From: Planctomycetaceae bacterium | GTDB lineage: Bacteria > Planctomycetota > Planctomycetia > Planctomycetales > Planctomycetaceae | Direction: 5' to 3' | Length of the DNA: 54,179 bases | Assembly: GCA_947476295.1 (NCBI GenBank) | Contig: CANJQC010000018.1 | Location: 1-54,179, forward strand | In this document: positions 5,234 to 38,781 of the stretch, piece after piece | How the letters are laid out: each line of letters opens with the position of its first letter | Numbering within the stretch: position 1 is the stretch's first letter | Position numbers and translations under genes: made by a program | Notes under the pieces: generated by a model | What the model was told of the DNA's origin: nothing | Database searches by the model: none | Seen by the model: the letters and a program-made list of their open reading frames with translations, nothing else

Positions 5234-7468
5234 ATGAATTTGCGTACCACATCGATAAAACGTCCCGACTGTCGCACGGATGCTGAACGAATTCGGGGCA
5301 TCCGCAGAGCACGCTGGCTGGTGATATCGGCACTTGTGTTGCTTTTGGCGCCAGTCGCAGCCGATGAGCGCGCGCGGCGATCCGGGGCTGGCGCCGAGGA
5401 AACAGATGACTTTCCGGTGTTCAACCTTGAACCGCTGCTTCCGCGTGGGGACGTTTCAGAATCAGCACTGCCGCCAGTGAATGACCGTGACAGCGGCGTG
5501 ATCCCGGGGCTAAGTCGAGATCCTGCCAAGACCGACTCACGGGACGTCGATCCACGTACTCGACCAGGAACCTCCGGGCGATCGGGAACATCAGGCCGTG
5601 CTGGTACCACAGGGGACTCAGAATCGCCGGGTTATCTTTCACCCTTTCGCGACGATCCCGCTCCTCCGCGACACGATCGAAGTTTTCCGCTTCGCGACCC
5701 GTTCCCACCAGCACCGTCGCGTCGTGATATCGACCGCACGGATCCGACATTGCCTGCCGAAGATGCAATCGTTGCCGAGGGGTTCGACTGGAGCCTGCAG
5801 CCTGTGTCTCTGGCGGATCTGGAAGTCGGGCATCCGTGGGCGTTCGAACATTCGAAGCCGAATTTATCCGAAGCGGAAATTGAAGATTACATCCGGCTGA
5901 TCCGCGCCGTCAAAGACCGTAAGGCTTCGATCGGACTTAATTTGCCGGACGACGTGAATATCGCCAGTGCATGGGAATCGGCCTTTTACCGATTTGCAGA
6001 AGCGAGGCGTCAGGCATGGGTGAACGGCAAATTGTTGTTGCAGCCAGGCCGCAGCGGATTGTTGAATCCGTTTGACGGATCGGTCCTCTCAACTGCCGAT
6101 CGTATCGCTGAACCTGCAAATCTAAAGTCGTATTCATTGACGGCTGACATGCAGTCGCATCCGTCGGATTTTGTAGGGCGCCCCGTCGTGCTGTACGGAC
6201 TGTTCACGCCGTCAGTCATCAATCAACTGCAGGCAAAGCAGACGCTGGAAGGCCAAAAGAGCGTCTACAAGCTGCAGCGCGGTTTTTTGAGGAACCTCTC
6301 CGACACTGCGAATATCGCGCTGGTCGATGCTGAAAGTTACGTCGATTACGATTCGCAGAAAGAAGCGATTGAAGCATGGCCAGTGGAACAGCGCATAAGC
6401 TATCCCGTGCTGATTAAGGGTTGGTTCATTAAAACCATGGGCGAACAGCCGCTGGTGTACTGTGACGTCGTGCGAATTCTCACGCCGCGTCCCTATGACG
6501 AATACATTTGTGACAACGTTCACAATCGACGACGTGTTTCAGACGACGAAAGTTGGCTGTATTATGAAACTTTGCGCCAGTTGCAGATTACCAGTTCGAA
6601 AATTCAGACCGGGATTGCGCTTGCGGATCAGCAGCTGCGAGTCGAAACATTAATGCATGAGGTTCGGGAAAAAGCGACTGCCGATCATACGCTGCTTCAG
6701 AATGCTTTGCGGAATGGAACGCTGGCGGACGTTGACTCACAGGACAGCAAGACGTTTCAGACTCGACTGACACGACTCGAACGGCAGCTCGATCAGCGGC
6801 TCAATCGATATCGAGAATACCAGCAAAAGCCGGACACGTTTCCTATATTTGTGGACCTCTTTCAGCACCCTGAACGATGGCAGGGCCACCTTGTCACGCT
6901 CCGCGGCCATGTGCGTCGAGTCACCTCGCACGAAGGCGATCCCGGTCTGTTCAACGGCCAGCCTTTACACGAGTTGTGGCTGTTTACGGATGATTCACAA
7001 CACAATCCGACTGTGATTGTGACGCCATCGCTGCCCGATGAATTTCCCCGCAATGCAGATGTCGTGGATTCTGTGACGGTGACGGGATGTCTATTCAAGA
7101 TGTACGTCTATAAATCTCAGCATGAAAATCGGCTTGCTCCGCTGCTGCTGGCGGGTCGCATTGAGTGGAATCCGACCAGCGATCAGATCCTGAAATTAGC
7201 GGACGGAGGAAATTTTGCGCAGGGGTCGCGATTACTGGCAAATGCCAAAGCGAACTCCGGCCGCCCCGTGAGCGATACTATGCTGCTGCTGTTTGGTTTT
7301 GTCACGCTGTTGGCCACGATGACAGTTTGGGGGCGAGTCCAGCGGGATCGCCGCGAACACCAGCGACTGATGCGGCTGGTGGACGAGCGACCGGATTTTC
7401 GTCAGACTTCGCAGGATATGTATTCCGGACCTTTCGCTGAATCCAGATTTGAGCCCACTCGCGGATGA
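5234..7468 (+). CDS. Large membrane-anchored protein with two similar beta-rich modules
   Basis: I do not recognise this 744-residue protein. It starts with a hydrophobic segment (about residues 30-45, WLVISALVLLLAPVAA) and ends with a second one near residue 685 (MLLLFGFVTLLATMTVW) followed by a basic cytoplasmic-looking tail. In between comes a long Pro/Arg/Asp-rich, probably disordered stretch (60-175), then a folded part. Two segments resemble each other: HPSDFVGRPVVLYGLF near residue 309 and HPERWQGHLVTLRGHV near residue 544, each followed by alternating hydrophobic strands, suggesting duplicated OB-like modules separated by a helical region (about 450-530). Its stop overlaps the purN start (ATGA), so the two are likely translationally coupled, but no functional link is evident. 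Confidence 0.8.
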   Translation: MNLRTTSIKRPDCRTDAERIRGIRRARWLVISALVLLLAPVAADERARRSGAGAEETDDFPVFNLEPLLPRGDVSESALPPVNDRDSGVIPGLSRDPAKTDSRDVDPRTRPGTSGRSGTSGRAGTTGDSESPGYLSPFRDDPAPPRHDRSFPLRDPFPPAPSRRDIDRTDPTLPAEDAIVAEGFDWSLQPVSLADLEVGHPWAFEHSKPNLSEAEIEDYIRLIRAVKDRKASIGLNLPDDVNIASAWESAFYRFAEARRQAWVNGKLLLQPGRSGLLNPFDGSVLSTADRIAEPANLKSYSLTADMQSHPSDFVGRPVVLYGLFTPSVINQLQAKQTLEGQKSVYKLQRGFLRNLSDTANIALVDAESYVDYDSQKEAIEAWPVEQRISYPVLIKGWFIKTMGEQPLVYCDVVRILTPRPYDEYICDNVHNRRRVSDDESWLYYETLRQLQITSSKIQTGIALADQQLRVETLMHEVREKATADHTLLQNALRNGTLADVDSQDSKTFQTRLTRLERQLDQRLNRYREYQQKPDTFPIFVDLFQHPERWQGHLVTLRGHVRRVTSHEGDPGLFNGQPLHELWLFTDDSQHNPTVIVTPSLPDEFPRNADVVDSVTVTGCLFKMYVYKSQHENRLAPLLLAGRIEWNPTSDQILKLADGGNFAQGSRLLANAKANSGRPVSDTMLLLFGFVTLLATMTVWGRVQRDRREHQRLMRLVDERPDFRQTSQDMYSGPFAESRFEPTRG

Positions 7469-27612: not shown

Positions 27613-28083
27613 CTACTGAGTCAACTGCTTGAACAATTCGCCAAAGTCCGGCATCTCCTCGCGAAGCACGTTATTCCATGCTTCGGGATTCCAGATCTCA
27701 ACACAAATGACCGCACCGACAACAACGACTTCTTTTCCTGCGTCAACACTCAAAAATGATCTGAAACCATCCGGGATCAACAGTCTTGAACGATTCGCCA
27801 GTCGCACAGTTTGATGGCGAGTCGATAAAAGACGGCCAAGCCGCTGTACATCACCCCAGCGTTGTTCCATCCGTCCGGAGTCAATTTTTTGACGGAGCAA
27901 TGTGAGACCACTGTCCAAACGTTGTTGCCATTCGGCCTGCTTCCACAGACTCAGACAACCTGCCCGTTCCTTGGCTATAATCAGGTCGCCGTTCTCGTCG
28001 GACACGGCAGACGCCAGCTCTGCAGGCAACATCAGGCGATTGCGATCATCGATCGTTCGCTGAAATTCCCCCGTGAGAAACAT
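27613..28083 (-). CDS. mraZ: MraZ-family protein
   Basis: The protein of about 156 residues has two SpoVT/AbrB-like MraZ repeats: [23 protein letters not shown] near the start and [19 protein letters not shown] in the second half. MraZ binds DNA upstream of the dcw cluster in most bacteria and controls it. Here it stands alone: rsmH, fts and mur genes are absent around it. I chose the ATG at 28083; the frame runs on for 26 codons without family-like sequence. Divergent to selA over 274 bp. The target of an orphan MraZ is unknown. Confidence 0.8.
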
Positions 28084-28357
28084 GACAAACCCTCGTAGCT
28101 GGCCGAATGGCGACGGGACCAGAACCCACCTGATTTTTGCGGTTCTGGCGTAGAGCCACACAGCCTAACGGGCATAAAACCCACTTTCAACTTGTTTTCA
28201 AAGATCTCTGCGGGCATTTATCCCACAAATCATGGAAATAGCTTAGGACTGCGAGACTGGGCTGGCAAGGCACCACGTATTCGTTTTTTCCGGATTTGAC
28301 GAAAACCCTGAGCACGCGATCCAGGGAAGCTGAACCCGCAAAACTTCCCGCCGCATA

Positions 28358-29857
28358 GTGTTCGCATATCGCGTTGATGCAGGTATTCTGATTTCTCAAG
28401 AACGTTTTCAGCGAAATGGCGCTAGCCACAGACAACGATTCCTCCATTTACGAGCCCCCCTCTTGTCTGAAGACCTCCGCAAATATATCCCTTCGATGAC
28501 TCAGCTTCTGGCTCGCGTGGAAGTCACGTCGCTTATCGAATGGTATGGAACGCAGCTCGTGCGGATGAAACTGGAGCATGCGATCGAACGGCTACGGCAA
28601 CATCTTGCCAACGGTGGATCGATCGCATTAAAGTCGGACGCCGAAAAACTGGTGATCGGGTGGCTGGTCAGCGACATGGATCGCTGCCTGCTGGGCGCTC
28701 CGCGGAAAGTCATCAACGCAACTGGCGTGTTGCTGCACACGGGACTTGGCCGCGCGCCACTGGCCGATGCTGCGCGCCGGGCAGTCATGGATGCGGCGGG
28801 CGCGTGTCTGCTGGAAGTGAATCCCGAATCCGGTGATCGTTCGTATCGTGGGTTTCAGGTCGATGATCTGCTGAAGGCCCTCACTGGTTGCGAAGACAGC
28901 TTGATCGTCAACAACAATGCCGGTGCCACACTGCTGCTGCTTCAGGGACTCTGTCAGGGCCGCGAAGTTCTGATTTCACGCAGTCAGCTTGTTGAGATCG
29001 GTGGATCGTTTCGATTGCCGGAGATTTTTCAGACTGCAGGCGTCGTACTGCGTGAAGTCGGCACAACCAATCGGACTCATCTGCATGACTATGCAACAGC
29101 AATCACTGAACGGACTGCAGCGATTCTGCGAGTTCACGCATCGAACTTCCGAATCGTCGGCTTCACCACCGAACCGTCCAGTTTAGAACTCGCGAGACTG
29201 GCGCACGCCCGCGGTCTGATAATGTTCGACGACATCGGAAGCGGACAACTGTTTCAGAATCCCGTACTAACCGCATTCGGAGAACCCGACTTTCGCACAA
29301 GTATCGAAGACGGTTCGGATCTCGTGCTGGGAAGCGGTGATAAGCTTCTCGGTGGCCCGCAGGCTGGAATCATCCTGGGCCGCTCCCCGTTCATTCAGTC
29401 CCTGCGTCGTCACCCGCTCGCACGCTGTCTCCGGATCGACAAAATCAGCCTCGCCGCACTGCACGCCACATTGCTGATTCATGCGCGAGGCACTGCAACA
29501 GACGAGTTACCGCTCTACCAAATGCTGCATACCGACACGTCCGAGTTAAATCAACGGGCGGAATCCATTGTCGCACAACTGAATTCACCGTTGGATATGA
29601 CTTTGCAAATTGTACCCAGCATCGCCGAAGTTGGCGGCGGTTCTTGTGCCGGACATCCCGTCTCCTCTATCGCGATCCTGCTCCGTTCATCAAACACGCC
29701 TGCTCAATCCCTCGCCCGAAAACTGCGCATGAGCGTCCCTGCAGTCTGGGGCCGAGTCGATACCGACGCAGTCCTGCTGGACCTTCGCTCCATTCAGCCA
29801 TGCGACGATCAGCAGCTGTGTCTGACTCTGAAGTCAGCATTGAGCATCAAAGCCTGA
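28358..29857 (+). CDS. selA: L-seryl-tRNA(Sec) selenium transferase
   Basis: SelA is a PLP enzyme that converts seryl-tRNA(Sec) to selenocysteinyl-tRNA(Sec). Motifs seen: VINATGVLLHTGLGRAPLA, GDRSYRGFQVDDLL, SLIVNNNAGATLLLL, the LVEIGGSFRLPEI region, MFDDIGSGQLF and the PLP lysine in VLGSGDKLLGGPQAG. The 499-codon frame begins with a GTG at 28358, but the first about 35 codons look unlike protein of this family. A TTG at 28463 (LSEDLRKYIPSM) would give a more typical start; neither has a clear ribosome binding site. selB, selC and selD are not in the window. Its presence implies selenoprotein synthesis or a relic of it. Confidence 0.9.
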   Translation: MFAYRVDAGILISQERFQRNGASHRQRFLHLRAPLLSEDLRKYIPSMTQLLARVEVTSLIEWYGTQLVRMKLEHAIERLRQHLANGGSIALKSDAEKLVIGWLVSDMDRCLLGAPRKVINATGVLLHTGLGRAPLADAARRAVMDAAGACLLEVNPESGDRSYRGFQVDDLLKALTGCEDSLIVNNNAGATLLLLQGLCQGREVLISRSQLVEIGGSFRLPEIFQTAGVVLREVGTTNRTHLHDYATAITERTAAILRVHASNFRIVGFTTEPSSLELARLAHARGLIMFDDIGSGQLFQNPVLTAFGEPDFRTSIEDGSDLVLGSGDKLLGGPQAGIILGRSPFIQSLRRHPLARCLRIDKISLAALHATLLIHARGTATDELPLYQMLHTDTSELNQRAESIVAQLNSPLDMTLQIVPSIAEVGGGSCAGHPVSSIAILLRSSNTPAQSLARKLRMSVPAVWGRVDTDAVLLDLRSIQPCDDQQLCLTLKSALSIKA

Positions 29858-30711: not shown

Positions 30712-31428
30712 CTACTTATCTTTGCGCATCCCAGTGAAATCCAACTCTCCAGAGTTCCCATCGAGGCTGTATTCGAGCGAGCCTTTTATTTTGGCCCCCT
30801 GCGGTCGTCCTGTGAACTCAACATGCACCGGCGCACCCTGGTACTCCGAATCCACTTCGAACGTCAACTGGTTGTCTTTGAGCGTCAACTCCCTGGCATC
30901 GACGGTCTTGTCGTTGATGGCATAAGTTGCCAGTAAATCTTTTCCCTTCTCAGTGATGGTCAGAATAGGTTCCAGCGTCTCACCGTCGGCCGTTTCAATC
31001 TTCAGTTTCCAGGCACCGATGACATCGGCTGCCAGCACGCTCCGCTTCGCTTCCCAGGGAAATTCACGCGAGTCGCCGTCGCCTTTTGCCGTAAAATCGC
31101 CATCGACTTTATCTCCATCGATCTTGCCTTGAAATTGGACAGTGATCGTCTGCTCGAGTTCTACTTCCACCTGGAAGGAAACTTCGTTGCCACTTACCTT
31201 CCCTTGCTGCACGTTCATTTTTATGCCGCGAGCTTCGAGCGTCCCGGTGAGTTTACCATCCTTGTCAATATCCAGCTTCAACACGTTTTCGATCGAGTCT
31301 CCATTGATTTCAAAATTCCACCTCCAGGTTCCGGATGGATCCACCATCGCTTTCTTGTCGTCGGCTTGAACCAGGCTAGCCAGTATGCAGCAAGCCAGGC
31401 AGGCAATTGCAGTCGTAATTTGCTTCAT
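30712..31428 (-). CDS. Secreted protein with two beta-rich repeats
   Basis: The protein of about 238 residues begins with a signal peptide (MKQITTAIACLACCILASLVQA) at the ATG 31428, which has GGAG 9 bases upstream. The mature part consists of two similar modules of about 105 residues: SGTWRWNFEINGDSIENVLKL with TGTLEARGIKMNVQQGKVSG, and GAWKLKIETADGETLEPILTI with TYAINDKTVDARELTLKDNQ. Each has alternating strands typical of lipocalin-like or jelly-roll domains. I recognise no enzyme motif. The gene has its own terminator and no close partners. It is likely periplasmic; its function is unknown. Confidence 0.8.
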   Translation of the reverse strand: MKQITTAIACLACCILASLVQADDKKAMVDPSGTWRWNFEINGDSIENVLKLDIDKDGKLTGTLEARGIKMNVQQGKVSGNEVSFQVEVELEQTITVQFQGKIDGDKVDGDFTAKGDGDSREFPWEAKRSVLAADVIGAWKLKIETADGETLEPILTITEKGKDLLATYAINDKTVDARELTLKDNQLTFEVDSEYQGAPVHVEFTGRPQGAKIKGSLEYSLDGNSGELDFTGMRKDK

Positions 31429-32066
31429 CGAAAAAATCTCCAGTTGGGAACGGAACCGTGGTATCACGCGAACGAACAGTAGATCACACCAAGTCTCCGG
31501 TGGTCGCACCGCAGAGACCATGCAGGACCGCTGAAGTATGCATCGCGTGGAGCGAAGATTCTACAGCGATCCGCCGCGAATTTGTATCAATTTGTAGCGA
31601 TCATCGCTCAGCCTCGCGGAGGAATCCTGTCAGCAGTGGCGATGCTCGCAAACAAAAAGCCTGTCGCGTGAGGGAAAGTTGAGAAGGGTTACTGACAGAA
31701 CCGCTCCACTTTGGCTGGTTGCCCCTGTGCTTCAAACGGGAGTCTTTATTTTCGGAGCTTGCCTGAAGGCCTCAATTCCCGCCTCAGACAGGTTTCGGAG
31801 AAACCGATCCTGTCGATTGCTGCGCGAATGCTCATTACACCGAGTCTTACGCACCTGTGGCGATGTGGGGATTCGTTACGATTCATGCGGCATATTCGAT
31901 TCGAAATCACCAATCGTTACTGCGTTTGTGCTTCGGGCGGGTTGATTTTTACGCATTTGGTCGAACATGACCTAATGTTGCCCTTAGTCATGAGTCGTCG
32001 CGATTCTAGGCATCATCGTGAGCGACAACAGGGACTGCGGACTTCGATCACCCAGGGAATTCACAC
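31429..32066. other. Intergenic region, divergent
   Basis: This 638-bp region lies between the secreted-protein gene (minus) and the FHA-EAL operon (plus). It must contain both promoters. I see no strong palindrome, no tRNA and no convincing small gene; the short frames inside lack protein-like composition. Confidence 0.5.
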
Positions 32067-33212
32067 ATGGCCAAGATACTGGCAGATTCGCGCTTGCACA
32101 TACGCGACTGCGGCATTGACGAAACCTCATCTTCTTCACTTCCGGAAGGCTTGTGGGTTCTGTCGCGGAGTGGCGGAGAAAATGGCACCAACCAGCGAGT
32201 GAACGTGGCGGGGCATTCGTTTACCATCGGTCGCCTTCCTTCCAGCAATCTGTGTCTGTCGGATACAACTGTGTCCGGTCGTCATGCCGAAATTTTGACG
32301 ATCAATTGCGACCTCTTTGTACGCGACCTCAACAGCACCAATGGGACGTTGCTGAACGGTCGCAAGCTGCAGAATCTGACCGGACTTCGGTCTGGTGACG
32401 TGCTGCATTTCGGCAGTGTGATGTATGCACTGCAATCATCCGCAGACGAATGCATGAGTTCTACAGTAACGGCCGATGCATCTGCCGAGGCGTTCGCTCA
32501 GATGCAGTTCGGAAAACTTCTGCGTCGTGCTGCAGTGCGTCCTTACTTCCAGCCGATCATTCGCCTGAGCGATAATGCCCGCGTGGGCTTTGAGGTTCTC
32601 ACGCGCAGTTACCTGCGGGGACTGGAAACGCCCGATAAAATGTTCCGCGTGGCTGCTGAACGAAACGTTGAAGCTCAGCTTAGTCAGATCTGCCGAGCCG
32701 AGGGGCTGCGAATCGCAGAAAGTCTGGGAAACACGCATTTTTATCTGAACACGCATCCAGTTGAGCTAAACGGCACCGGGCTGTTCACATCGCTGGAACA
32801 GCTGCGGGATGATTTTCCTGAAGCCCAGATTGTCCTGGAAGTTCACGAAGGAGCCGTCGCTTCCAGTGCTGCGTTGCGGAATGTGCGTCAGGTTACGCAG
32901 GACCTGAATATGGGACTGGCCTACGACGATTTTGGAGCCGGACAGGCTCGGCTGAAGGAACTATTTGAAGTTCCGCCCGATGTATTGAAATTCGACCTGA
33001 AGTTTGTCCACGGGATTGCATTTAGTCCGCCACAGCATCGTGCCACGATTCAATCACTGATCCGCATCGTACGGGATCTGAACGTTGTGCCACTTGCAGA
33101 AGGTGTCGAGACGACTGAAGAAGCTGTCGTCTGTCAGGAACTGGGCTTCGAACTCGCTCAGGGATACCTGTTCGGTCACGCGGAAACCGCATCCCACTGG
33201 ACCTCTAGGTAA
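32067..33212 (+). CDS. FHA-EAL domain protein
   Basis: The 381-residue protein joins a forkhead-associated domain (about 30-122), which binds phosphothreonine peptides, to an EAL domain (about 150-372), the cyclic-di-GMP phosphodiesterase fold. FHA motifs: HSFTIGRLPSSN, VSGRHAEI, LNSTNGTLLNGR. EAL residues: E176 in FEVLTR (EVL in place of EAL), N228 in YLNTHP, E258 in LEVHE, D287-D288 in YDDFG, K308/K312, E345 in AEGVET and Q365 in LAQGYLFG. The metal-binding set looks kept, so phosphodiesterase activity is possible. No membrane segment is seen. It opens an operon: the next gene starts 12 bp later. FHA binding to products of the kinase encoded in the same operon is an attractive inference. 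Confidence 0.88.
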   Translation: MAKILADSRLHIRDCGIDETSSSSLPEGLWVLSRSGGENGTNQRVNVAGHSFTIGRLPSSNLCLSDTTVSGRHAEILTINCDLFVRDLNSTNGTLLNGRKLQNLTGLRSGDVLHFGSVMYALQSSADECMSSTVTADASAEAFAQMQFGKLLRRAAVRPYFQPIIRLSDNARVGFEVLTRSYLRGLETPDKMFRVAAERNVEAQLSQICRAEGLRIAESLGNTHFYLNTHPVELNGTGLFTSLEQLRDDFPEAQIVLEVHEGAVASSAALRNVRQVTQDLNMGLAYDDFGAGQARLKELFEVPPDVLKFDLKFVHGIAFSPPQHRATIQSLIRIVRDLNVVPLAEGVETTEEAVVCQELGFELAQGYLFGHAETASHWTSR

Positions 33213-33224
33213 GAATACACAACG

Positions 33225-34589
33225 ATGTTAATGGCACGTCCAACACAGGGAAAGAACGGCGATCCCGCACTGCTCGCGGCATTGCTGGCCGGGGAGAACT
33301 TTTGGCCATCAGATCCCGCTTCGTTGCATGAGCTGGGTCTGAATGAACCTTTCGTTGAAGGTCTCATCTGCCGTCTGCTGCGCTCATCGGGAAATCAAAC
33401 CGGGCGAATGATTGCCAGCGAAGTCAGCATCCCCTTCCGCATGATTGAGGGGTTGATGGAGCGGCTGAAATCACGACGCATGGTGCTGCACTGCGGCAGT
33501 GCCAGTTTGAACGACTATATCTTTGGCCTCACTGAAGAAGGCCGTCGCCGCGCAGAAACATCTCACTCCGAATGTGCGTACACAGGCCCGGCACCGGTAC
33601 CGCTCAGCGATTATGTGATCTCCGTCGAAGCGCAGGCGATCTGCGATCAGCCGATCCGCCGCGAAGAACTAGAAGATGCTTTCTTCAACGTATCGATTTC
33701 AGAAGAACTGTTCGATATGATCGGGCCGGCGGTCAACTCCGCCAGCGGCCTTTTTCTGTACGGCGCACCCGGCAACGGAAAATCGACGATCGCTCGCTGC
33801 CTGACTCACTGTTTTGGGCAGGAAATCTGGATTCCGTATGCGATCATCGACGGACGAGAAATCATCACGCTGTTTGATCCGGCGTATCACGAGATCGTCG
33901 ATCAGCCAGACGAAGGACTTCCGTTTGATCGGCGCTGGGTTCGCGTTCGCAGACCCACGGTCATTGTCGGTGGCGAACTGACCCTCGACAGTCTGGAAAT
34001 TCGGCACGATCCCGTGAGCAACACGAGTGAAGCGCCGCTGCAGATGAAAAGCAACTGCGGATGCTTGCTGATCGACGACTTCGGTCGTCAGCGAGTGTCT
34101 CCTGAGCAACTGCTTAACCGCTGGATCGTGCCACTAGAAAACAAGTACGACTATCTCACGCTGCCAACCGGCAAGAAGATTCAGGTTCCATTCCAGCAGC
34201 TGATTATTTTCTCCACAAATCTGGACCCTGCTGATCTGGTGGATGAAGCCTTTCTGCGACGTATTCCCTATAGGATTGAAGTCACAGATCCACACGAAGA
34301 CGAAGTCCATCGACTGTTTCAGATCGCTTCTGAAAAACTTGGCTGCACATACGATCCGGAATCGGTTGAGCACCTGCTGGCCACTTACTATCGCTCCCAT
34401 AAGCGTCCGATACGACGCTGTCATGCGCGAGATTTGTTACTGCAGGTTCGAAATTTCTGCATGTACCACGGTCTTCCATTCGAAATGCAGCCGGAACATT
34501 TCGATCACATTGCAGAATCTTTTTTTACCCGCGTTCCCACTCGTCCCCTGAATGCGGCATTTGAAGAAGCCCTGACAACAGGTCGGTGA
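33225..34589 (+). CDS. Winged-helix / AAA+ ATPase
   Basis: The 454-residue protein has an N-terminal winged-helix-like part (about 25-110, with TGRMIASEVSIPFRMIEGLM and a following YIFGLTEEGRRRAE wing) and a P-loop ATPase domain. Walker A is YGAPGNGKST (about 180-188), Walker B CLLIDDFGRQ (about 280), a sensor-like IIFSTNLDPADLVDEAFLRRIPYR follows, and a C-terminal helical lid ends the domain. It is a cytosolic AAA+ protein of uncharacterised function. It sits 12 bp after the FHA-EAL gene and 13 bp before the kinase-tubulin gene, which indicates one transcript. The start MLMARPT at 33225 is used; an ATG six bases later is also possible. Confidence 0.85.
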   Translation: MLMARPTQGKNGDPALLAALLAGENFWPSDPASLHELGLNEPFVEGLICRLLRSSGNQTGRMIASEVSIPFRMIEGLMERLKSRRMVLHCGSASLNDYIFGLTEEGRRRAETSHSECAYTGPAPVPLSDYVISVEAQAICDQPIRREELEDAFFNVSISEELFDMIGPAVNSASGLFLYGAPGNGKSTIARCLTHCFGQEIWIPYAIIDGREIITLFDPAYHEIVDQPDEGLPFDRRWVRVRRPTVIVGGELTLDSLEIRHDPVSNTSEAPLQMKSNCGCLLIDDFGRQRVSPEQLLNRWIVPLENKYDYLTLPTGKKIQVPFQQLIIFSTNLDPADLVDEAFLRRIPYRIEVTDPHEDEVHRLFQIASEKLGCTYDPESVEHLLATYYRSHKRPIRRCHARDLLLQVRNFCMYHGLPFEMQPEHFDHIAESFFTRVPTRPLNAAFEEALTTGR

Positions 34590-34602
34590 AAGAAGTCCTA
34601 CT

Positions 34603-37600
34603 ATGAGTCACACCGAAGTCAGTTCAACAGCCGTACTTAACGAAGACGAGCCGCGGAATACGTTGTCCGCCGGATTCACTGAAATTGCCGGTTACCGCAT
34701 GCTGGAACGCATCGGTATGGGCGGTTTTGGAGAAGTCTGGCGCGCCGTGGGCCCGGGCGGTTTTCCTAAAGCCGTCAAAGTTTTGTTTGGACTTCTGAAT
34801 GGTTTTCAGGCCGATACAGAACTCAAGTCGCTGAACCGCATTCGTGACCTGCGTCATCCATTTCTGCTGAGCATAGAACGTGTGGAAGTCGTAGACGGGC
34901 GCGTGATCGTCGTGACCGAACTGGCAGACCGCAGTCTGGATCAACGATTCCGCGAGCTGGTGGCTTCCGGACAACGTGGTGTGTCGCGCGACGAACTGTT
35001 GCGTTACCTGCGCGACGCTGCCGATGCTCTGGATTTTATGTCTGAAGAACATGGCCTGCAGCACCTAGACATCAAGCCGGAAAACCTGCTGCTGCAGGGC
35101 GTCCATGCAAAGGTCGGTGACTTCGGTCTGACAAAGGCCGTCGGCCATGCGCGACATTCGCAGATCAACGGATTCACGCCGCTGTACGCGCCCCCGGAAC
35201 TGTTCGAAGGCCGTCCGGATCGGGGCAGTGATCAATACAGTCTGGCCATTGTGTATCAGACAATGCTCACAGGTATTCCGCCGTTCAACGGACGGACAGC
35301 CTCGCAGTTGATGGCTCAGCATTTGAAGAGTTCGCCGGATCTGAGCAGTCTGCTGCCGTCTGATCGAGCTGTCGTTGCCCGAGCCCTCTCGAAGAATCCA
35401 CGCACGCGTTTTGCGGGTTGTCGTCAGTTTATTGACGAACTCACGAAACGCCGTCCGACTAAGTCGCTGAGTACTCGCGTGCCGTCAGAGTCTGTATCAA
35501 CGATGCAGAATTCGCGAACAACCCTTGCCTTCACGGAAAATATCACCAGCAATCATTCAATGGTGCACGGCACGGCCAGTCGACTGGCCCCTGTCAGGAG
35601 TCTGCCGGAGGACACGCAGTTTCGGCCAACGCTGTTCGTCGGGATCGGCGGACTTGGTTGCCAGACGGTCTCGCTGTTGAATCAACGAATCCAGCAGCGT
35701 TTCCCGAACGCGACTTTGCCGGCAATTCAGTTTTTGTGCATCGATACCGACCGCGAGGCGATGTCGGATCTCAAGCAGCGGAGTTCCGGAGATTACCGGG
35801 CGGTCACCACCGTTTCGGCCCCGCTGCGCACGACTCAGGATTATCGCAAGGAGTCGTCTCAGCATCTGACGTGGCTTGCTCGCCGCTGGCTGTTCAACAT
35901 TCCCCGCAGCGGGCGTGTTGAAGGCATGCGACCGCTGGGACGCCTAGCCTTTGTGGATCACGCCGGAGAGATTCGCATCGAACTGAAAAAAAGTCTAATG
36001 ACACTGGTGAGTTCTGCATCAGCCAGCATATCCGGGTCGGAAACCGCATTGCTGTTCGACACAACCGGCATCGACGTATGTCTCGTTGGTTCAACTTCCG
36101 GCGGCACGGCAAGTGGCTGCATGCTGGATCTGGCATGGCTGGTCCGCGAACTTGTGAGCAATGGTCGGATGCCCCCAGTCGGTCTGACGTCTATGCTGCT
36201 GCACGGGACCGCTCAAGGTCGTCAACTGGCGGACATGCAGGACGCCAACACGGTCAGCTTCCTTCAGGAACTTCAGCACTTCTCCATCCCAGGCGCCCAA
36301 CGCCCCGGACTAACGTCTCGCTTCTCTGACTCTGAAATCTCAAAACCGTTCGACGAAACGACGCTGGTGCATTTCGGTGACGACCTGTCGGACCATGACT
36401 TTTTCGAAGGTGCGAATCGCACGGCTGAATACCTTGAACTGCGAACGCTGACATCAGCTCGTCGAGAAATGAATGCGTGGCGTAACCCGGAACGAACACG
36501 AATTCCCGAAAGCCATGAAGTATCGTTGCGTTCATTCGGGCTCTCAAGGATTAATGCAGATTCCTGGGAAGTCGCGAATCGCGAAGCCGGTCAACTGGCA
36601 TCCGCAGCGATCAGTCTTTGGACGCAACCATCGGCAGCGGCGGGTGAACCCAACTCACCCGAATGGAAGGCACTGCTCGATCGGCTGGGGATCAGCAGTG
36701 AAGCCATGACGCAGGTCATTCCAAATCTGCTTGACAACGATCGCACCAGACGGATGGATGAGTACGCAAACAGCGTCGGGCAGCGATTGTCGCGGGATAT
36801 TGCAGTGTCGGTCAGGGAACAGGTTTCCGCCATCGTCAGTCAGGACGCAGCTTCATCGACAGCAGGCGATTCCATGGCTGCTGTGACTGGAGAAATCCAA
36901 ACGGAATTGGCCATTCGATTACCGCTGGATTTGCAGCTGGCTGAATCCTTCCTCAGGCAATTGCTCGACACCCGAATACGATCAGGCCTGATGGACAACG
37001 CGATCACGGCCCTGATGCGCCGCACCGATCAGGCACTTGCGACATGTCGCAGTCAGCAGAGCGACCTGCAGAGTGCATTCAATGGATTGCGTGCATCGCA
37101 TGTAGGCGGAAAACCCGACCAGGCGACGGATGCAGGGCACACAGATCTACGCGGTTTCTGTCGTCAGTATTGTATGCTGTTCACCTGTCAGACGATCTGC
37201 CAGACATTGATCGAACACCTGCAGGCAATACTGGCTGCATTGCGAGGCTTACACGAACAACGATCCACGATCCTCCGCGACAGACTGATCGTACTTGCGT
37301 CGCAGGTGAACGACGATGCCCCGTGCTCGCCGACAATTCCCGAGCAGATGATTGTGGCCTTTGAAGCGTATCTGCAGACGTCCGGTCGATTTCGAGTCAG
37401 TTCGTTTCTTGATCGCGATATCCGCCCGGCTGATGTGGCAACGCTGCGGTCAGAAGCCTCTAACTTCCTGCTGCTGAGTATGTCCCGCGACCCGCAGTTT
37501 GCTGACGACCAACGGCTGTTGAAACGTAGTGAAACGTTTCCGGCAAACGCTAGGCCGAGACTTCAGAATGTCGGTGGTGGAAAGCGAGTGCTGGCGGTGA

Positions 37601-37818
37601 TTCCGGATCCGCAGTCGGCTGAGTTCTGGAAGTCGTTGTTGCAGAATGATTTCGGACCATGTGTCTCTGCCTGTTCAACAACGACAGACGACATTTGTGT
37701 GGTCTGCGAAACTGAGGGCATCTCAATTCCGGCGGCTGTCGATGCGCTGACTCACATGCGACCTCATGTACTGGAACTCGCGGGGCAACTGCATTCTCGC
37801 CACGACGTTCCGTGGTAG
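34603..37818 (+). CDS. Ser/Thr kinase fused to a tubulin/FtsZ-superfamily domain
   Basis: This 1071-residue protein has an N-terminal Hanks kinase (about 30-290): glycine loop IGMGGFGEVW, ATP lysine in KAVKVLFG (K59), catalytic loop HLDIKPEN (Leu for Arg of HRD), metal motif GDFGLTK (173-175) and YAPPELFEG. After a linker of about 50 residues comes a nucleotide-binding domain that resembles the tubulin-like family (Tubulin_2 type): TLFVGIGGLGCQTVSLLNQR near 341, FLCIDTDREAMSDL, and the tubulin signature loop GSTSGGTASGCMLD near 494. Then follow AQGRQLADMQDANTV and a long helical C-terminal part (about 600-1070) of unknown type. No transmembrane segment is evident. It is the third gene of an operon with the FHA-EAL protein and the AAA+ ATPase. 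GTP binding is inferred; a T7-loop catalytic aspartate is not obvious. Confidence 0.85.
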   Translation: MSHTEVSSTAVLNEDEPRNTLSAGFTEIAGYRMLERIGMGGFGEVWRAVGPGGFPKAVKVLFGLLNGFQADTELKSLNRIRDLRHPFLLSIERVEVVDGRVIVVTELADRSLDQRFRELVASGQRGVSRDELLRYLRDAADALDFMSEEHGLQHLDIKPENLLLQGVHAKVGDFGLTKAVGHARHSQINGFTPLYAPPELFEGRPDRGSDQYSLAIVYQTMLTGIPPFNGRTASQLMAQHLKSSPDLSSLLPSDRAVVARALSKNPRTRFAGCRQFIDELTKRRPTKSLSTRVPSESVSTMQNSRTTLAFTENITSNHSMVHGTASRLAPVRSLPEDTQFRPTLFVGIGGLGCQTVSLLNQRIQQRFPNATLPAIQFLCIDTDREAMSDLKQRSSGDYRAVTTVSAPLRTTQDYRKESSQHLTWLARRWLFNIPRSGRVEGMRPLGRLAFVDHAGEIRIELKKSLMTLVSSASASISGSETALLFDTTGIDVCLVGSTSGGTASGCMLDLAWLVRELVSNGRMPPVGLTSMLLHGTAQGRQLADMQDANTVSFLQELQHFSIPGAQRPGLTSRFSDSEISKPFDETTLVHFGDDLSDHDFFEGANRTAEYLELRTLTSARREMNAWRNPERTRIPESHEVSLRSFGLSRINADSWEVANREAGQLASAAISLWTQPSAAAGEPNSPEWKALLDRLGISSEAMTQVIPNLLDNDRTRRMDEYANSVGQRLSRDIAVSVREQVSAIVSQDAASSTAGDSMAAVTGEIQTELAIRLPLDLQLAESFLRQLLDTRIRSGLMDNAITALMRRTDQALATCRSQQSDLQSAFNGLRASHVGGKPDQATDAGHTDLRGFCRQYCMLFTCQTICQTLIEHLQAILAALRGLHEQRSTILRDRLIVLASQVNDDAPCSPTIPEQMIVAFEAYLQTSGRFRVSSFLDRDIRPADVATLRSEASNFLLLSMSRDPQFADDQRLLKRSETFPANARPRLQNVGGGKRVLAVIPDPQSAEFWKSLLQNDFGPCVSACSTTTDDICVVCETEGISIPAAVDALTHMRPHVLELAGQLHSRHDVPW

Positions 37819-37971
37819 GCTGTTGATGACGCTCACCTGCACGGGGCGGAAGAAGCCACGTTTGAGCAACAATTTGCGATTCCAGGCGAGGGGACGAACA
37901 GTTCAGATTTGTGTATGATCTCTGCTGCAAGTTCACGTTCTCAGAGTCCCGCATTAACAGGAGTCGGTCTG

Positions 37972-38781
37972 ATGTTGAAGTTTCTGTCGCCAAAGTCCAT
38001 CGGTGCACTCGCCTTGACAAGTCTGGTGTTGGTCTCGGCCGGATTGTCACGCGCGGATGATATTAAGCCGATCAGATCGCTGCTTGTGCTGGGCGGTTGC
38101 TGCCATGACTACAACACTCAGAAAGATCTGCTGGCGAAGGGGATTGGGGAAAGAGCGCATGTGAAGGTAGTCATTGCCTATGACACTGACAAGACGACCG
38201 GGCATCTGAACCCTGTCTACGAAAAGGCCGACTGGGCTGAAGGCTTTGACGTGATTATTCACGACGAGTGTTCATCGGATGTCAAGGACCTCGCGATTAT
38301 CGAAAGGATTCTGGAACCACATCGGCAGGGACTCCCAGCCGTGCTGCTGCATTGCGGTATGCACAGTTACCGGAGCGAAGGTTATCCCAAAGCCGTAACT
38401 CCGTGGTTTGAATTCACTGGCCTGCAGTCGACAGGGCACGGTCGGCAGGCTCCGATCAGCATCGGTTTCGTGGCACCAGAACATCCAGTCACACACGGGC
38501 TTGCTGACTGGACGACGATTAATGAAGAACTCTACAACAACAGTGAGAACAAACTGCTGGACACTGCGCGTTCCCTGGCCATAGGTCAACAGGAAGGCGC
38601 GAAGGACGCTGCCATTGTCTGGACGAACAGTTACCGTGAAAAGACTAAAGTCTTCGCAACGACTCTCGGGCACAACAACGATACCGTTGGCGATGCGCGT
38701 TATCTGGACCTTGTCACTCGAGGACTGCTGTGGTCGTGTGGCAAGCTGAATGATACTTACCTAAAGCCTGCGAAGCACTGA
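37972..38781 (+). CDS. ThuA-like domain protein, secreted
   Basis: The protein of about 269 residues begins at ATG 37972, with AGGAG upstream, and has a signal peptide (MLKFLSPKSIGALALTSLVLVSAGLSRA). The rest is a ThuA-like (trehalose-utilisation type) glutamine-amidotransferase-like fold: LLVLGGCCHDYNTQKDLL, the FDVIIHDECSSDV strand, LPAVLLHCGMHSYR at the elbow position and APEHPVTHGLADW. These proteins are frequent in planctomycetes next to sugar or sulfatase genes and are thought to act on carbohydrates; the activity is unknown. There are no obvious operon partners. Confidence 0.85.
   Translation: MLKFLSPKSIGALALTSLVLVSAGLSRADDIKPIRSLLVLGGCCHDYNTQKDLLAKGIGERAHVKVVIAYDTDKTTGHLNPVYEKADWAEGFDVIIHDECSSDVKDLAIIERILEPHRQGLPAVLLHCGMHSYRSEGYPKAVTPWFEFTGLQSTGHGRQAPISIGFVAPEHPVTHGLADWTTINEELYNNSENKLLDTARSLAIGQQEGAKDAAIVWTNSYREKTKVFATTLGHNNDTVGDARYLDLVTRGLLWSCGKLNDTYLKPAKH

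Follow-up and report, generated by a model that had tools for sequence, protein, structure and literature searches.

Kinases fused to tubulin-like proteins have been known in planctomycetes since 2010, when Makarova and Koonin reported four planctomycete members of the FtsZl1 family with an N-terminal protein kinase (PMC2875224). The fusion was reported again in 2023 (PMC9871819), the tubulin-like domain was described in 2024 as the commonest among domains found only in cytoplasmic kinases of Planctomycetota, all of which are stated to lack FtsZ (PMC11032199), and FtsZl1 is listed for Gemmata massiliana (PMC4672568). In the FtsZl1 passages of the 2010 paper, typical operons contain von Willebrand factor A (vWA), GTPase, kinase and OmpA genes, neither T6-H7 nor any related C-terminal domain could be identified, and a reviewer's remark that a cyclic diguanosine monophosphate (c-di-GMP) phosphodiesterase, Psta_0487, adjoins the Pirellula staleyi FtsZl1 gene is set aside as anecdotal (PMC2875224). 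Here we describe a gene of this family in a 54,179-nucleotide stretch of a Planctomycetaceae bacterium (assembly GCA_947476295.1, contig CANJQC010000018.1, positions 1 to 54,179; hereafter the window), where it is the last of three plus-strand genes encoding an FHA-EAL protein (gene 1), an AAA+ ATPase (gene 2) and the kinase-tubulin fusion (gene 3).

The kinase-tubulin fusion itself is thus already known; new are the conservation of the trio as a module, its recurring GGDEF partners and the C-terminal part of the tubulin fold, found behind a helical insert. A literature search, which mostly left subscription papers aside and did not extend to the supplementary neighbour tables of 2010, found no publication on the trio, its GGDEF partners or the fold.

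Conservation of the three-gene module

Within the branch to which the window belongs, the trio is almost certainly one functional unit (probability about 0.95). The tubulin half of gene 3 was compared with 150 genomes of the same family, taken as the same set in the FHA-EAL and ATPase searches, and matched 32 of them, a lower bound given that the divergent Tubulin_2 protein of one genome (G534) was missed. The ATPase query matched 144 of the 150 genomes with scores split into two groups, a module-type ATPase (E<=1e-149, 53-100% identity) in 28 genomes and weaker matches in the others, at about 52% identity or less among the matches listed. In all 28 genomes, each of them among the 32, the module-type ATPase lay on the contig of the tubulin match, and it was found in none of the 118 family genomes without such a match. 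The other four of the 32 comprised G194, with a tubulin protein lacking the kinase (L115), and G611, G614 and G652 from a single genus (code g211), whose tubulin-half matches were fragmented or partial, as if the module had decayed in part of one genus or the assemblies were at fault. Another genome of that genus, G605, carries a GGDEF gene, an FHA-EAL gene and the start of an ATPase gene at a contig end (L116). The FHA-EAL query matched all 150 genomes, mostly through paralogues, and for this reason was not used for co-occurrence.

A survey of kinase-tubulin loci found 154, the best 80 of which (the named loci) were compared. The query alignment came from picked loci, mostly with the trio, so that the fractions given here lean towards the trio, and open reading frame (ORF) picking missed some genes, such as the ATPase of G638. 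The kinase was fused to the tubulin part in 79 of the 80 named loci, the exception (L209) being cut by a contig end. Among the 59 named loci with at least 5 kb of upstream sequence, an FHA gene lay within 6 kb in 53, an ATPase gene in 44 and both in 42; the three genes are linked in many relatives. The order and strand of the trio vary, with the partners upstream on the same strand, divergent, or downstream of the tubulin gene, and the flanks of 12 loci from the window's own family had little in common besides a GGDEF gene. Recurring genes in the neighbour clusters that were read encode c-di-GMP proteins; vWA, GTPase, OmpA, GAP1 GTPase or fibronectin type III (FNIII) partners were not recognised in the 14 largest neighbour clusters of the 80 loci, which were read without a full Pfam or profile scan.

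Two loci, L123 and L124, carry a tandem pair of kinase-tubulin genes without the other two partners. The cultured planctomycete Adhaeretor mobilis HG15A2 (L224) is also among the carriers of the module. A further kinase-tubulin gene, on a 3,260-base contig titled Candidatus Nealsonbacteria (L161), groups with a Pirellulales copy; the contig is most likely planctomycete and was placed in the wrong bin.

A tubulin fold divided by a helical insert

Pfam placed Tubulin_2 (PF13809) at residues 344-669 of gene 3 (E 1.3e-31; score 110.6 bits, curated cut-off 27), the only such match in the genome. A model of residues 335-1071, built from 76 sequences (mean predicted local distance difference test score, pLDDT, 90.6; predicted template modelling score 0.85), retrieved CetZ2 (4b45_A) first in Foldseek (E 1.3e-7), followed by FtsZ chains and gamma-tubulin. 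Structural alignment with VIA-align ranked CetZ 3zid_A highest (Z 25.6, 299 aligned residues, root mean square deviation (rmsd) 3.8, model 6-728), with BtubABC 5o09 at Z 23.0, bacterial and eukaryotic tubulin at about 23, and FtsZ 2r6r at Z 22.3 (284 aligned, rmsd 4.4, model 7-719 against chain 8-323). Across these matches (Z 22-26) the aligned ranges, which VIA-align gives as first and last aligned residue only, without a residue-level alignment, start at model residues 1-7 and end at 706-737, with 8-16% identity among the matches listed. Because these ranges reach the ends of both model and chain, model residues 659-728 (protein residues 993-1062) were assigned to the end of the tubulin C-terminal domain. 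The model therefore indicates a complete tubulin fold in gene 3, its GTPase and C-terminal domains split by a helical insert of about 310 residues.

The initial annotation had placed a tubulin-superfamily domain at residues 330-600; the fold is borne out by the CetZ, tubulin and FtsZ matches and the start, near residue 340, is right, with the end moved past the insert to the C terminus. The motifs GIGG and SGGTASG presumably represent the T1 and T4 loops of the tubulin GTP site, and model positions G15, D47, D49, G166, G167, G171 and D175 were kept in 73-76 of the 76 rows, G15, G166 and G171 being invariant. The model's best match in BFVD was a phage tubulin (E 8.4e-5); a phage origin was rejected after a search of 50,697 phage records with the tubulin half gave no hit.

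A kinase with intact catalytic residues and a Ser/Thr-rich linker

The kinase domain of gene 3 has K59, E73, D156, K158, N161 and D173, all invariant among the aligned relatives and including what we take to be the catalytic Lys, C-helix Glu, HxD Asp and DFG Asp. HLD replaces HRD in 78 of 78 kinases, which classes them as non-RD kinases, and the best sequence matches in the PDB include bacterial kinases, PknA and PknB among them. Between kinase and tubulin runs a linker of 49-122 residues (median 65), with a mean Ser/Thr content of 18.7% against 12.1% in the rest of the protein; the linker was the richer part in 74 of 79 proteins. Proline is raised as well (10.9% against 4.6%), so part of the Ser/Thr excess is a general trait of disordered linkers.

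Constant FHA contacts, variable EAL and GGDEF sites

In the window, gene 1 retains R56, S70 and N92, which we take to be phosphothreonine contact positions of the FHA domain together with H73, S90 and T91, as well as E176, N228, E258, E261, D287, D288, K308, E345, E348 and Q365, assumed to be the catalytic and metal-binding positions of the EAL domain. Copies adjoining the tubulin gene within the window's family are 38-76% identical to gene 1. Across 97 aligned rows from two overlapping collections, duplicates kept, the FHA contact residues were conserved throughout, rows with a ruined EAL site included (position 91 being Thr in 94 and Ser in 3), and the EAL site was intact in 72 (with a single change, at E345) and ruined in 25. 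Counted by named locus with a full gene (n = 61), the EAL site was intact in 43 and ruined in 18. This retention of FHA while EAL decays suggests that phospho-reading stays fixed in the module and that its c-di-GMP chemistry varies.

Nine distinct loci have, at a spacing of -51 to +60 bp from FHA-EAL, a GGDEF gene whose product (329-386 aa) carries an intact RYGGDEF or RFGGDEF motif: L093, L094, L095 (= L153), L096 (= L155), L098 (= L157), L099, L100 (= L165), L156 and L116, the contig of the last stopping inside the ATPase gene. Pfam confirmed the GGDEF domain in eight of the nine, L099 lying outside the scan, and in a tenth locus, L198, a GGDEF gene follows 19 bp behind the kinase-tubulin gene. 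A second type of partner, a REC-GGDEF-CBS protein with a broken GGDEF motif (domains from Pfam in L158 and L175, other copies assigned by similarity), lies near FHA genes with a ruined EAL. Of the GGDEF neighbours within 700 bp, those at the 43 EAL-intact loci were intact in 5 and broken in 0, with no neighbour in 38; at the 18 EAL-ruined loci the corresponding numbers were 0, 14 and 4, one of the last four (L168) having a broken GGDEF at 1.9 kb. The pairing of states gives a Fisher p of 9e-5, a value that ignores kinship, the ruined FHA-EAL copies being one clade. Loss of both c-di-GMP sites in the same loci suggests that the two had a common purpose. The ATPase too was distributed unevenly: 42 of 43 EAL-intact loci and 5 of 18 EAL-ruined loci have it no more than 6 kb from the FHA gene.

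A single branch of the FHA-EAL tree separates the 18 ruined copies from the others (Shimodaira-Hasegawa-like approximate likelihood ratio test, 99.9); well-supported branches of the tubulin tree force at least four changes of the ruined label. Because the ruined FHA-EAL copies stand behind one branch, a single decay followed by exchange is as open as several decays, and long branches make either history unsure.

Other GGDEF-type genes were seen near kinase-tubulin genes. The ruined-EAL locus L180 (also seen as L133) has two consecutive REC-GGDEF-like genes (L133 10850-14200; L180 3806-7156), one with a broken motif and a second whose GGEEF is intact and which lies at 2.2 kb from FHA. Intact-GGEEF genes of GGDEF type also occur in L129 (13719-14807) and L145 (1869-2972), where the kinase-tubulin gene, at a distance of 4.3 and 3.4 kb respectively, has no FHA-EAL or ATPase neighbour.

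The AAA+ ATPase and its relatives

Against Pfam, the gene 2 protein gave sub-cut-off matches only. Its predicted model (mean pLDDT 87.4) returned 907 PDB matches in Foldseek at E<=0.001 and, with VIA, a best match to 8p49_F, an uncharacterised Pyrococcus protein (Z 18.3, rmsd 3.1, 252 aligned). Judged from this model, the protein is an AAA+ ATPase. The initial annotation of a winged-helix P-loop ATPase is upheld for the AAA+ part by model, Foldseek and VIA, the winged helix being suggested by the secondary structure of the model. The presumed Walker A, Walker B, sensor 1 Asn and arginine finger are invariant columns in 54 rows. The ATPase is better conserved than the tubulin half: 53 relatives are 51-80% identical to the window's copy, against 21-43% in 75 relatives for the tubulin half. 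The top phmmer match was spastin (4.8e-6), and an analogy with microtubule-severing enzymes of spastin/katanin type was not adopted because that match is confined to residues 134-200 and the closest listed folds in VIA are others, namely 8p49, Lon, ComM and MCM.

Outside the phylum, 75 of 72,556 plasmid records matched the ATPase, and the proteobacterial homologues had 32.5-37.5% identity over 83-92% of gene 2 among the matches listed. Of the 75, five plasmid regions were opened (L239, L240, L241, L242 and L243, from Rhizobium twice, Paraburkholderia, Burkholderia and Salipiger), and in all five the homologue lay beside or inside a Tad/Flp pilus cluster, a lead, not a proof, that this class of ATPase serves surface appendages. 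Using Rhizobium Tad proteins as tblastn queries (E<=1e-6), a weak test at such distance, no Tad genes were found near the trio or paralogue loci. TadE gave five matches in the window's own genome and is present in 145 of 150 family genomes, which makes Tad co-occurrence uninformative. Paralogous ATPases at 13 Planctomycetes loci shared no neighbour family in more than two loci.

Proposed mechanism and alternatives

Taking together the domains, the predicted fold, the conserved linkage, the intact catalytic residues of kinase and EAL and the recurring GGDEF partners, we propose that the trio is a phosphothreonine-docked, c-di-GMP-linked signalling assembly on the kinase-tubulin protein, to which, as a whole mechanism, we give a probability of about 0.45. 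The kinase-tubulin protein would be a GTP-binding scaffold of the tubulin family, whose kinase would phosphorylate Thr/Ser in its own linker and in partners. Gene 1 would dock on this phosphothreonine through its FHA domain and bring in the EAL phosphodiesterase, and in some relatives a GGDEF cyclase too, so that c-di-GMP could be turned over or sensed locally at the assembly; the AAA+ ATPase would remodel the assembly or its target. The output would most likely be a surface process governed by c-di-GMP, such as attachment or pili, and not cell division. Phospho-docking, GTP binding, assembly into a scaffold or filament, remodelling, substrates and output are the steps we infer. That the FHA domain reads phosphorylation by the kinase of gene 3 is plausible, and is strengthened by the FHA contacts kept in all rows and by the Ser/Thr-rich linkers.

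Several observations weigh against this proposal. Neither partner was found in 4 of the 59 named loci, and linkage thins with distance: in 22 loci chosen from further families of the class (L117, L118, L120, L121, L123, L124, L126-L140 and L145), both partners lay within 6 kb in 10, an FHA gene only in 4 and neither in 8, the last including all five loci of one family (code f94), which had one or two kinase-tubulin genes; distant partners may have been missed, the window proteins having been the first seed for finding these families. The conservation of the trio, which the initial annotation proposed to survey, thus stands for the 28 genomes in which every module-type ATPase shares a contig with the tubulin match, and weakens in remoter families. 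The ruined EAL of 18 loci means that c-di-GMP hydrolysis is dispensable to the module in places and not essential everywhere, and in the window's own branch the EAL is intact and a GGDEF neighbour absent, the six GGDEF genes of this genome all lying on contigs other than the window. ATPase paralogues (about 37-52% identity), like FHA-EAL paralogues, are common in the class outside the module. Finally, no T7 acidic motif (NxDxxD/E) was seen between the presumed helices H7 and H8, an assignment based solely on element order; at model position 290, the closest acidic column, 72% of the family have D/E and the window has Asn. Acidic residues of the T7 loop complete the GTP site of the neighbouring subunit in polymer-forming members of the superfamily.

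A bolder version of the proposal, possible yet doubtful, is that of a novel type of cytoskeletal signalling device, in which the tubulin fold polymerises with its own kinase, phosphothreonine in the linker writes the assembly state, FHA proteins place phosphodiesterase and cyclase on the polymer and the dedicated AAA+ motor disassembles it; in one branch the dead EAL and dead GGDEF pair may have turned into sensors. If true, a single filament would couple GTP state, Ser/Thr phosphorylation and c-di-GMP, and if the tubulin part polymerises, a bacterium that lacks FtsZ would have a filament carrying its own kinase. That GGDEF and EAL sites are ruined together beside the same kinase-tubulin protein amounts to a natural experiment by which the role of c-di-GMP in the module can be tested directly.

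Alternatively, the tubulin part would bind GTP as a switch or serve as a static scaffold, without ever forming filaments, and the module would be a kinase-FHA signalling node. A conserved T7 acidic motif was not seen, the helical insert may block the usual contacts, and the same doubt was voiced by Makarova and Koonin and their reviewer in the passages on this family (PMC2875224). We nevertheless consider this unlikely, given a tubulin fold with its C-terminal part present, the near-complete conservation of the seven glycines and aspartates noted above, and the general remark in the same paper that all characterised superfamily members form filaments (PMC2875224).

The ATPase homologues in all five Tad/Flp clusters opened, together with the TadE genes of the window's genome, would fit a regulator of surface attachment in which a pilus or secretion machine of Tad/Flp type is the target of the ATPase and is gated by the kinase-tubulin/c-di-GMP part. 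Such a regulator is quite unlikely, no Tad genes having been found in the fetched regions by the weak tblastn test, and the near-universal TadE of the family cannot speak for it.

A conflict system, anti-phage or self/non-self, resembling those with GTPase-tubulin or MoxR-vWA that Kaur et al. described in 2020, could account for a presence that is patchy even inside the genus and for the changing flanks, and tubulin-family proteins are known in conflict systems (PMC7159879). The PADLOC models PD-T4-6 and mad6, both for anti-phage kinases, matched the kinase domain (best 7.7e-36) and IetA the ATPase weakly (4.7e-8), but the kinase matches cover the kinase domain only, as any Ser/Thr kinase would, and the NCBIfam IetA family scored 26.9 bits against a cut-off of 510. 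None of these matches, nor those of further PADLOC kinase models to the kinase domain or a weak one to TRIP13 on the ATPase, was taken as specific to defence. No effector genes were recognised in the 14 largest neighbour clusters, where recurring genes encode c-di-GMP proteins, and we regard a conflict system as very unlikely. Barely credible is an FtsZ substitute for division, hinted at in the initial annotation: the genome has a complete tubulin fold (by the model) and, as that annotation correctly held, no FtsZ (no PF00091 Tubulin/FtsZ match at E<=1, the control being positive in 13 of 14 genomes), but the module is accessory, with tubulin-half matches in at least 32 of 150 family genomes and Tubulin_2 in half of the genus (6 of 12 genomes) and in 183 of the 397 genomes from the class, and this patchiness, although all Planctomycetota are said to lack FtsZ, led us to discard it as the main explanation.

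Gene layout and genomic context

The three genes (Table 1) are separated by 12 bp (genes 1 and 2) and 13 bp (genes 2 and 3), as read directly at the junctions. Strand and spacing agree with the initial annotation, as do the FHA, EAL, Hanks kinase and tubulin-superfamily domains, each with a Pfam match above cut-off; the observation is thereby confirmed, and the interpretation built on it partly supported.

Table 1. Features of the module and its immediate neighbours, in window coordinates
Feature	Coordinates	Strand	Basis and details
Gene 1, FHA-EAL protein, 381 aa	32067..33212	+	ORF list, Pfam
FHA domain, residues 53-116	32223..32414	+	Pfam 3.1e-17; R56, S70, H73, S90, T91, N92 present
EAL domain, residues 152-371	32520..33179	+	Pfam 2.9e-36
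Gene 2, AAA+ ATPase, 454 aa	33225..34589	+	ORF list, predicted model, fold search
Winged-helix-like N-terminal part, residues ~34-102	33324..33530	+	Model secondary structure (41-102 helix-helix-helix-strand-strand)
AAA+ core, residues ~125-440	33597..34544	+	Presumed Walker A GAPGNGKS, Walker B LLIDDF, sensor 1 N332, arginine finger R345/R346
Gene 3, kinase-tubulin fusion, 1071 aa	34603..37818	+	ORF list, Pfam
Ser/Thr kinase domain, residues 31-290	34693..35472	+	Pfam Pkinase 1.1e-25
Ser/Thr-rich linker, residues 291-334	35473..35604	+	34% S/T in window
Tubulin GTPase part, residues ~340-674	35620..36624	+	Pfam, model, fold; GIGG, SGGTASG
Helical insert, ~310 residues, about 679-989 (model ~345-655)	36637..37569	+	Model secondary structure
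C-terminal tubulin domain part, residues ~993-1062	37579..37788	+	Model, fold; conserved R-x-D-x-x-W end follows
Upstream neighbour	30712-31521	-	Weak sub-threshold calycin-like match (Pfam)
Downstream neighbour, ThuA-like gene	37909-38781		Pfam

The host genome (5.99 Mb, 252 contigs, 98.97% complete) includes the window as contig 18, and in the tubulin-half tree the closest named relatives come mostly from records named Planctomycetaceae. Promoter-like and terminator-like sites were rarer in the window than in shuffled sequence, and a scan of the window for Rfam families and tRNA gave no match of either kind. Elsewhere in the window, Pfam identified a MraZ-like gene (27613-28161, minus strand) near SelA, selenocysteine synthase (28358-29857, plus strand); the Pfam scan took in 19 further window genes, and no division gene was recognised in that set. 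A 744-aa protein (5234-7468, plus strand) scored 26.7 bits, slightly above the cut-off of 23.4, for BBP1_C, a family from the spindle pole of yeast, probably a chance match of coiled coils.

Comparison with known systems

Among described multi-gene NTPase systems, the GAP1-N2 GTPase-tubulin conflict systems likewise contain tubulin-domain proteins; Kaur et al. describe them for firmicutes and actinobacteria, where their partners are vWA, FNIII and GTPase proteins (PMC7159879), whereas the recurring neighbours here are c-di-GMP proteins. In Rhizobium and Burkholderia, the AAA+ ATPase of Tad/Flp loci, whose annotation reads AAA family ATPase or ATP-binding protein, is a near full-length homologue of gene 2, yet it adjoins CpaF, TadB/C-type, TadE/G or pilin genes, and gene 2 adjoins the kinase-tubulin and FHA-EAL genes. 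PknB-type kinases have a Thr-rich linker and an FHA protein encoded alongside. Compared with that kinase/FHA pair, the putative phosphothreonine-docked assembly combines a non-RD kinase fused to tubulin with an FHA domain carried on a phosphodiesterase. CetZ, FtsZ and tubulin share the fold of gene 3, which differs from them in its N-terminal kinase, its helical insert of about 310 residues and the lack of a visible T7 acid motif.

Closest of all is FtsZl1 (Tubulin_2, PF13809), the domain family to which gene 3 belongs. Relative to FtsZl1 as presented in the 2010 passages (PMC2875224), the FHA-EAL and AAA+ genes recur here over many loci, and the C-terminal tubulin part is found behind the insert; the model thus indicates that this FtsZl1 branch keeps the complete tubulin fold, a matter unsettled in 2010, and the remark on a c-di-GMP phosphodiesterase, then anecdotal, becomes a recurring system with named parts.

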